From a bacterium (GTDB lineage Bacteria; Patescibacteriota; Saccharimonadia; Saccharimonadales; UBA4665): DNA of 43,148 nt. Under the pieces are notes generated by a model. That model was not told the DNA's origin and made no database searches. It saw only the letters and a program-made list of their open reading frames with translations. A program made the translations under genes and the position numbers. Positions 42,604-43,148 of the stretch are shown piece after piece. Positions within the stretch are counted from its first letter, which is position 1. The number at the start of each line of letters is the position of its first letter. The stretch is taken from contig JAJZKM010000006.1 of NCBI GenBank assembly GCA_021804085.1, positions 1-43,148 on the forward strand. The letters run 5' to 3'.

Positions 42604-42695
<92 letters not shown>

Positions 42696-42776: not shown

Positions 42777-42853
42777 GCGCGTGTAGCTCAGCTGGATAGA
42801 GCATTGGCTTGCGGAGCCAAAGGTCGTAGGTTCGAACCCTATCACGCGTACCA
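42777..42853 (+). tRNA. tRNA-Arg(GCG)
   Basis: The cloverleaf is complete. The acceptor GCGCGTG/CACGCGT has a G-U first pair, the D-arm is GCTC/GAGC, and the T-arm has TTCGAAC. The anticodon stem TTGGC/GCCAA encloses TTGCGGA, so the anticodon is GCG, reading CGC and CGU. The discriminator is A and CCA is encoded. Most bacteria use ACG (inosine-modified) for these codons. Confidence 0.97.
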
Positions 42854-43078: not shown

Positions 43079-43148
43079 ATGGCTAGTCAAACACCAGGAC
43101 AACTCTTTATTGGAGGAGCCTTGAAGGGTTATGCTTCGAAGATGATGA
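43079..43148 (+). CDS. Start of an unidentified gene, cut by the window end
   Basis: An ATG at 43079 opens 23 codons (MASQTPGQLFIGGALKGYAS then KMM) without a stop to the window edge. AGGAG at 43067-43071 lies 7 nt upstream, an ideal Shine-Dalgarno, and a promoter-like pair lies ~90 nt upstream. The product cannot be named from 23 residues. Confidence 0.5.
   Translation, partial: MASQTPGQLFIGGALKGYASKMM

Follow-up and report, generated by a model that had tools for sequence, protein, structure and literature searches.

The stretch of DNA analysed here, referred to as the window, is a contig (C20) of 43,148 nucleotides from a genome assembly of 651,883 bases (652 kb) in 26 contigs, estimated to be 81% complete. 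Roughly 300 bp separate the contig end from a well-formed tRNA-Arg gene on the + strand (42777-42853), with an encoded CCA and a GCG anticodon (G34 C35 G36) at 42811-42813, starting at position 35 of the gene within the loop TTGCGGA. The original prediction had placed a tRNA-Arg with this loop and anticodon here; ARAGORN returns identical coordinates and strand, and the Rfam model RF00005 agrees, scoring 68.7 bits where the gathering score is 29 (E 4.7e-13). Each of the four arms is paired, and the conserved tRNA positions are kept. A free-energy fold is unconvincing by itself (z -1.6, cloverleaf not drawn), and the identification does not need it, because two tRNA models concur and a genome of the same family (G149, locus L208) carries a near-identical gene, with the same GCGCGTG/CACGCGT acceptor and the same loop, as its sole match to the R34 pattern for tRNA-Arg.

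The best named matches of a nearby valyl-tRNA synthetase are proteins of Candidatus Saccharibacteria (49-53% identity), and the other window proteins are ordinary housekeeping functions such as TsaD, DnaG, a Mur ligase and a chaperonin. A scan for promoters around the tRNA-Arg(GCG) gene found none. By eye, the segment 43047-43078, right ahead of an ATG at 43079, contains an inverted repeat (GACTCC...GGAGTC) with TTTTT after it; this is not among the results of the terminator scan. The adjoining gene is a tRNA-Ser(CGA) (42604-42695). It was considered as an echo of the tRNA-Ser(CGA) found beside tadA in the TadA-bearing families described below; this genome has no deaminase match, and nothing is drawn from the resemblance.

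The genome has 41 matches to the Rfam tRNA model; ARAGORN, run on all of their loci, resolves these into 40 distinct sequences. In this 81% complete assembly the arginine set comprises two GCG tRNAs and one each of TCG, CCG, TCT and CCT. The second tRNA-Arg(GCG), at C7:69423-69496, is identical to the window gene at 65 of 77 positions; tRNA-Arg(UCG) lies at C25:4-77 (L012) and tRNA-Arg(CCG) at C7:41827-41900 (L011). Both GCG copies (window 42777-42853; L006:1498-1574) begin with a G1-U72 pair; counting these two, the same start occurs in 11 of 40 distinct GCG tRNAs that encode CCA in the loci retrieved. None of the 40 distinct tRNAs has A34, none is a tRNA-Arg(ACG), and an ACG pattern has no match in the assembly. 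Of the remaining four-codon boxes, those for Thr, Val and Ser have G34, U34 and C34 forms, and that for Leu has GAG, TAG and CAG. Several tRNAs that any bacterium needs, among them those for Ala, Cys, Phe and Ile, were not found, which fits the incompleteness of the assembly.

The two Pfam deaminase families that cover TadA, PF00383 and PF14437, likewise have no match in the 81% complete assembly at E<=1, although in 14 control genomes they matched 13 and 12, respectively. The present genome thus combines GCG, UCG and CCG tRNAs with neither ACG nor TadA found, the pattern of an inosine-free CGN box. From an incomplete, fragmented assembly alone, a missing ACG gene or TadA would be possible, and the case for absence therefore rests also on relatives. 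The NCBIfam TadA model, NF008113, is above its cut-off in none of 215 genomes of the class, a result that is weak by itself since the cut-off is strict (reached by 5 of 12 matching control genomes). Matches below the cut-off occur in 47 of the 215. At the loci of the best four of these matches there is no tRNA nearby; the three whose sequences were inspected lack the TadA segment DWRL/DPxFG, and at the fourth (L262) no open reading frame passed the motif filter. Moreover, three genomes of the same genus (95-97% complete) and the same-family genome G149 have no NF008113 match at E<=1e-5. We infer that TadA is truly absent from the missing part of this assembly as well.

The same relatives each have an R34 match, and the anticodons listed, together with that of L208, are GCG. 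Across the class, the R34 pattern matches 161 of 215 genomes, and among the matches listed all are GCG and none is ACG; the 54 genomes with no match show that the pattern misses some. An even sample of the phylum, 379 genomes, was searched with a strict tRNA-Arg pattern, which finds GCG in 130 and ACG in 1. A looser R34 pattern matches 193 of the 379, so that 186 are missed; anticodons are known among the matches listed, with few loose-only matches outside them. Among those listed, a tRNA-like ACG occurs in ten phylum genomes; a further ACG match (G084, C15) was counted as chance because its anticodon stem does not pair. In the phylum sample, a tRNA-like ACG and a GCG match were never seen in the same genome. 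One same-family genome (G219) has TCG, TCT and CCT as its only arginine anticodons among all 37 Rfam tRNA matches; because other necessary tRNAs such as that for Asp are missing too, we read the lack of GCG there as an assembly gap. A search pattern for UCG in which the D-loop was fixed was discarded after matching none of eight genomes, including G219, although ARAGORN shows UCG there. GCG without ACG is, then, the general rule in this lineage rather than peculiar to the present genome.

In canonical bacterial decoding of arginine, a tRNA-Arg(ICG) made by TadA is accompanied by tRNA-Arg(CCG). TadA is reportedly essential in E. coli, to go by the title of a 2002 paper by Wolf et al. The present genome resembles the canonical scheme in that CCG reads CGG, and differs from it in having G34 and U34 tRNAs where an ACG gene and a deaminase match would be expected. 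We hold it very probable that the window gene is the normal CGU- and CGC-reading tRNA-Arg of a Candidate Phyla Radiation bacterium of the Saccharibacteria type, in a lineage that has dropped inosine decoding of the CGN box. Presumably charged with arginine, the unedited G34 tRNA would, by wobble rules, pair with CGC and wobble to CGU, replacing the ICG form that TadA makes from tRNA-Arg(ACG). CGA would be left to tRNA-Arg(UCG), and CGG would be read by tRNA-Arg(CCG) or by UCG. The original prediction of altered arginine decoding, possibly without TadA, proved largely correct, and the additional tRNA that it called for to read CGA turned up in the genome-wide tRNA scan as the UCG gene, with ACG not found among the 40 distinct sequences. 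Open reading frames in the window use CGT 148, CGC 74, CGA 118 and CGG 42 times (AGA 162, AGG 69), so that all four CGN codons are in use, as they should be where every one of them can be read.

Could the GCG tRNA instead be a redundant extra copy in a genome that still uses tRNA-Arg(ACG) and TadA, with both genes hidden in assembly gaps? The assembly is 81% complete, several necessary tRNAs did not turn up in it, and the original prediction had named tRNA-Arg(ACG) plus tadA as the finding that would make this tRNA redundant. That pair was not found here, and the redundancy would have to be squared with the three more complete genomes of the same genus, each of which matches the R34 pattern and not NF008113, with the lack of ACG from every match listed for the 215 class genomes, and with the phylum sample, where ACG and GCG were not seen together. 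We regard a redundant copy as very improbable. A decayed or mobile-element tRNA with no role in translation deserves hardly any credence: the gene does lie near a contig end, and 12 of 77 positions distinguish it from the other GCG copy, but a high covariance-model score, intact conserved positions and an encoded CCA are poor signs of decay, and the acceptor and loop are kept in the same-family genome whose sole R34 match this is. The preferred reading remains that of a working CGU/CGC-reading tRNA. As to its origin, the window gene aligns with the genome's own CCG tRNA at a score of 60 and with the tRNA-Arg(ACG) of TadA-bearing families at 44-53 (gap costs included), scores that neither show nor exclude an ancestral change from A34 to G34.

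The feature in the window is already known in print and is ordinary for the lineage. A passage of Shulgina & Eddy 2021 (PMC8629427), which cites Rafels-Ybern et al., describes the Candidate Phyla Radiation as lacking tRNA-Arg(ACG) and using GCG, UCG and CCG. The present genome, with the same three tRNAs and no ACG, shows no difference from that description, and the class sample, with GCG and no ACG among the matches listed, accords with it; a published remark is thus confirmed on another genome set. A comparable arrangement appears in the portion of Yokobori et al. 2013 (PMC3711424) that treats the Pneumoniae-group Mollicutes and M. pulmonis, where tRNA-Arg(GCG) is found after loss of tadA. 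The likeness is that G34 replaces A34, TadA is missing and UCG reads CGA. The difference is that those Mollicutes lost tRNA-Arg(CCG) too, whereas this genome keeps it (C7:41827-41900). With a G34 tRNA, a large branch can do without an editing step that bacteria were long held to need.

If poor I:A pairing depresses CGA, that codon would be expected to be commoner where TadA is lacking. The measure used was a ratio: the fraction of CGN codons that are CGA, over the average fraction of A-ending codons in the remaining seven four-codon boxes. Its median is 0.92 in 41 GCG genomes, the window being one of them, and 1.01 in nine TadA/ACG genomes, no difference (Mann-Whitney p=0.40) in a comparison whose power is limited by the mostly single 9-20 kb stretch per GCG genome. 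Raised CGA use in TadA-less genomes is not supported. As a yardstick, the median is 0.84 in 66 loci of other bacteria, a set without L069 and L097, which are both from Saccharibacteria, and limited to loci with at least 60 CGN codons.

Against the blanket wording of PMC8629427, two families (nine genomes) in the phylum sample have tRNA-Arg(ACG) together with a TadA-like protein. PF14437 matches 207 of the 379 phylum genomes; most of the matches listed are partial (about positions 2-106) or lie in long frames, like other deaminases and RibD. Near-full-model matches of at least 113 bits occur in 11 genomes: two of family f30, five of f35 and four of f45. Ten of these 11 have tRNA-Arg(ACG) and none has a GCG match; the remaining one, G019, has no R34 match. 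A looser UCG pattern, which matched 6 of 15 genomes, is too insensitive to call f35 and f45 UCG-less. Both f30 proteins are above the NF008113 cut-off, and six f35 and f45 proteins tested against that model reach 86-99 of the 150 bits required, so that by the curated model they are not TadA. These six proteins do carry D-W-R-[LMF], and most also D-P-x-F-G. The solved proteins closest to one f35 protein (G024) are deaminases including several TadA chains; the closest to a weaker-scoring protein from another family is a guanine deaminase.

In four of the five f35 genomes, tRNA-Arg(ACG), tRNA-Ser(GCT), the TadA-like gene and a further tRNA-Ser stand in a row within about 1.1 kb (L154:1149-2064; L153:1311-2054; L157:1160-2050; L159:1165-2221). 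In the fifth (G117), tRNA-Arg(ACG) is on another contig than the TadA-like gene, and in f45 the two genes are apart. A34 tRNA-Pro(AGG) is rare in bacteria. Two f45 genomes with the TadA-like protein have one, at L176:12037-12113 and L181:6252-6329 (Rfam 63.2 and 59.2 bits), possibly a second inosine tRNA. We lean slightly towards the view that almost the whole Candidate Phyla Radiation has inosine decoding switched off and that one clade (f35 and f45) has it on, with a divergent TadA and tRNA-Arg(ACG) that in f35 are neighbours among tRNA-Ser genes; in f45 it may even extend to tRNA-Pro(AGG). If so, a usually essential editing system exists in both states within this phylum, among small and closely comparable genomes; those with and without TadA would allow study of how inosine decoding is gained or lost. 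The parts of the literature searched (PMC8629427, PMC9563170 and PMC6851277, with subscription journals mostly outside) gave no account of these exceptions, and this clade may be the one new point here.

Two ACG genes stand apart. The one in an f30 genome has a different loop (A37) in a fragmented assembly, and possibly comes from contamination. In G060, a second tRNA-Arg(ACG), with no encoded CCA as printed, is one of four closely packed arginine tRNAs (ACG, TCT, CCG and CCT; L165:11698-12034), a cluster that is possibly a mobile element.
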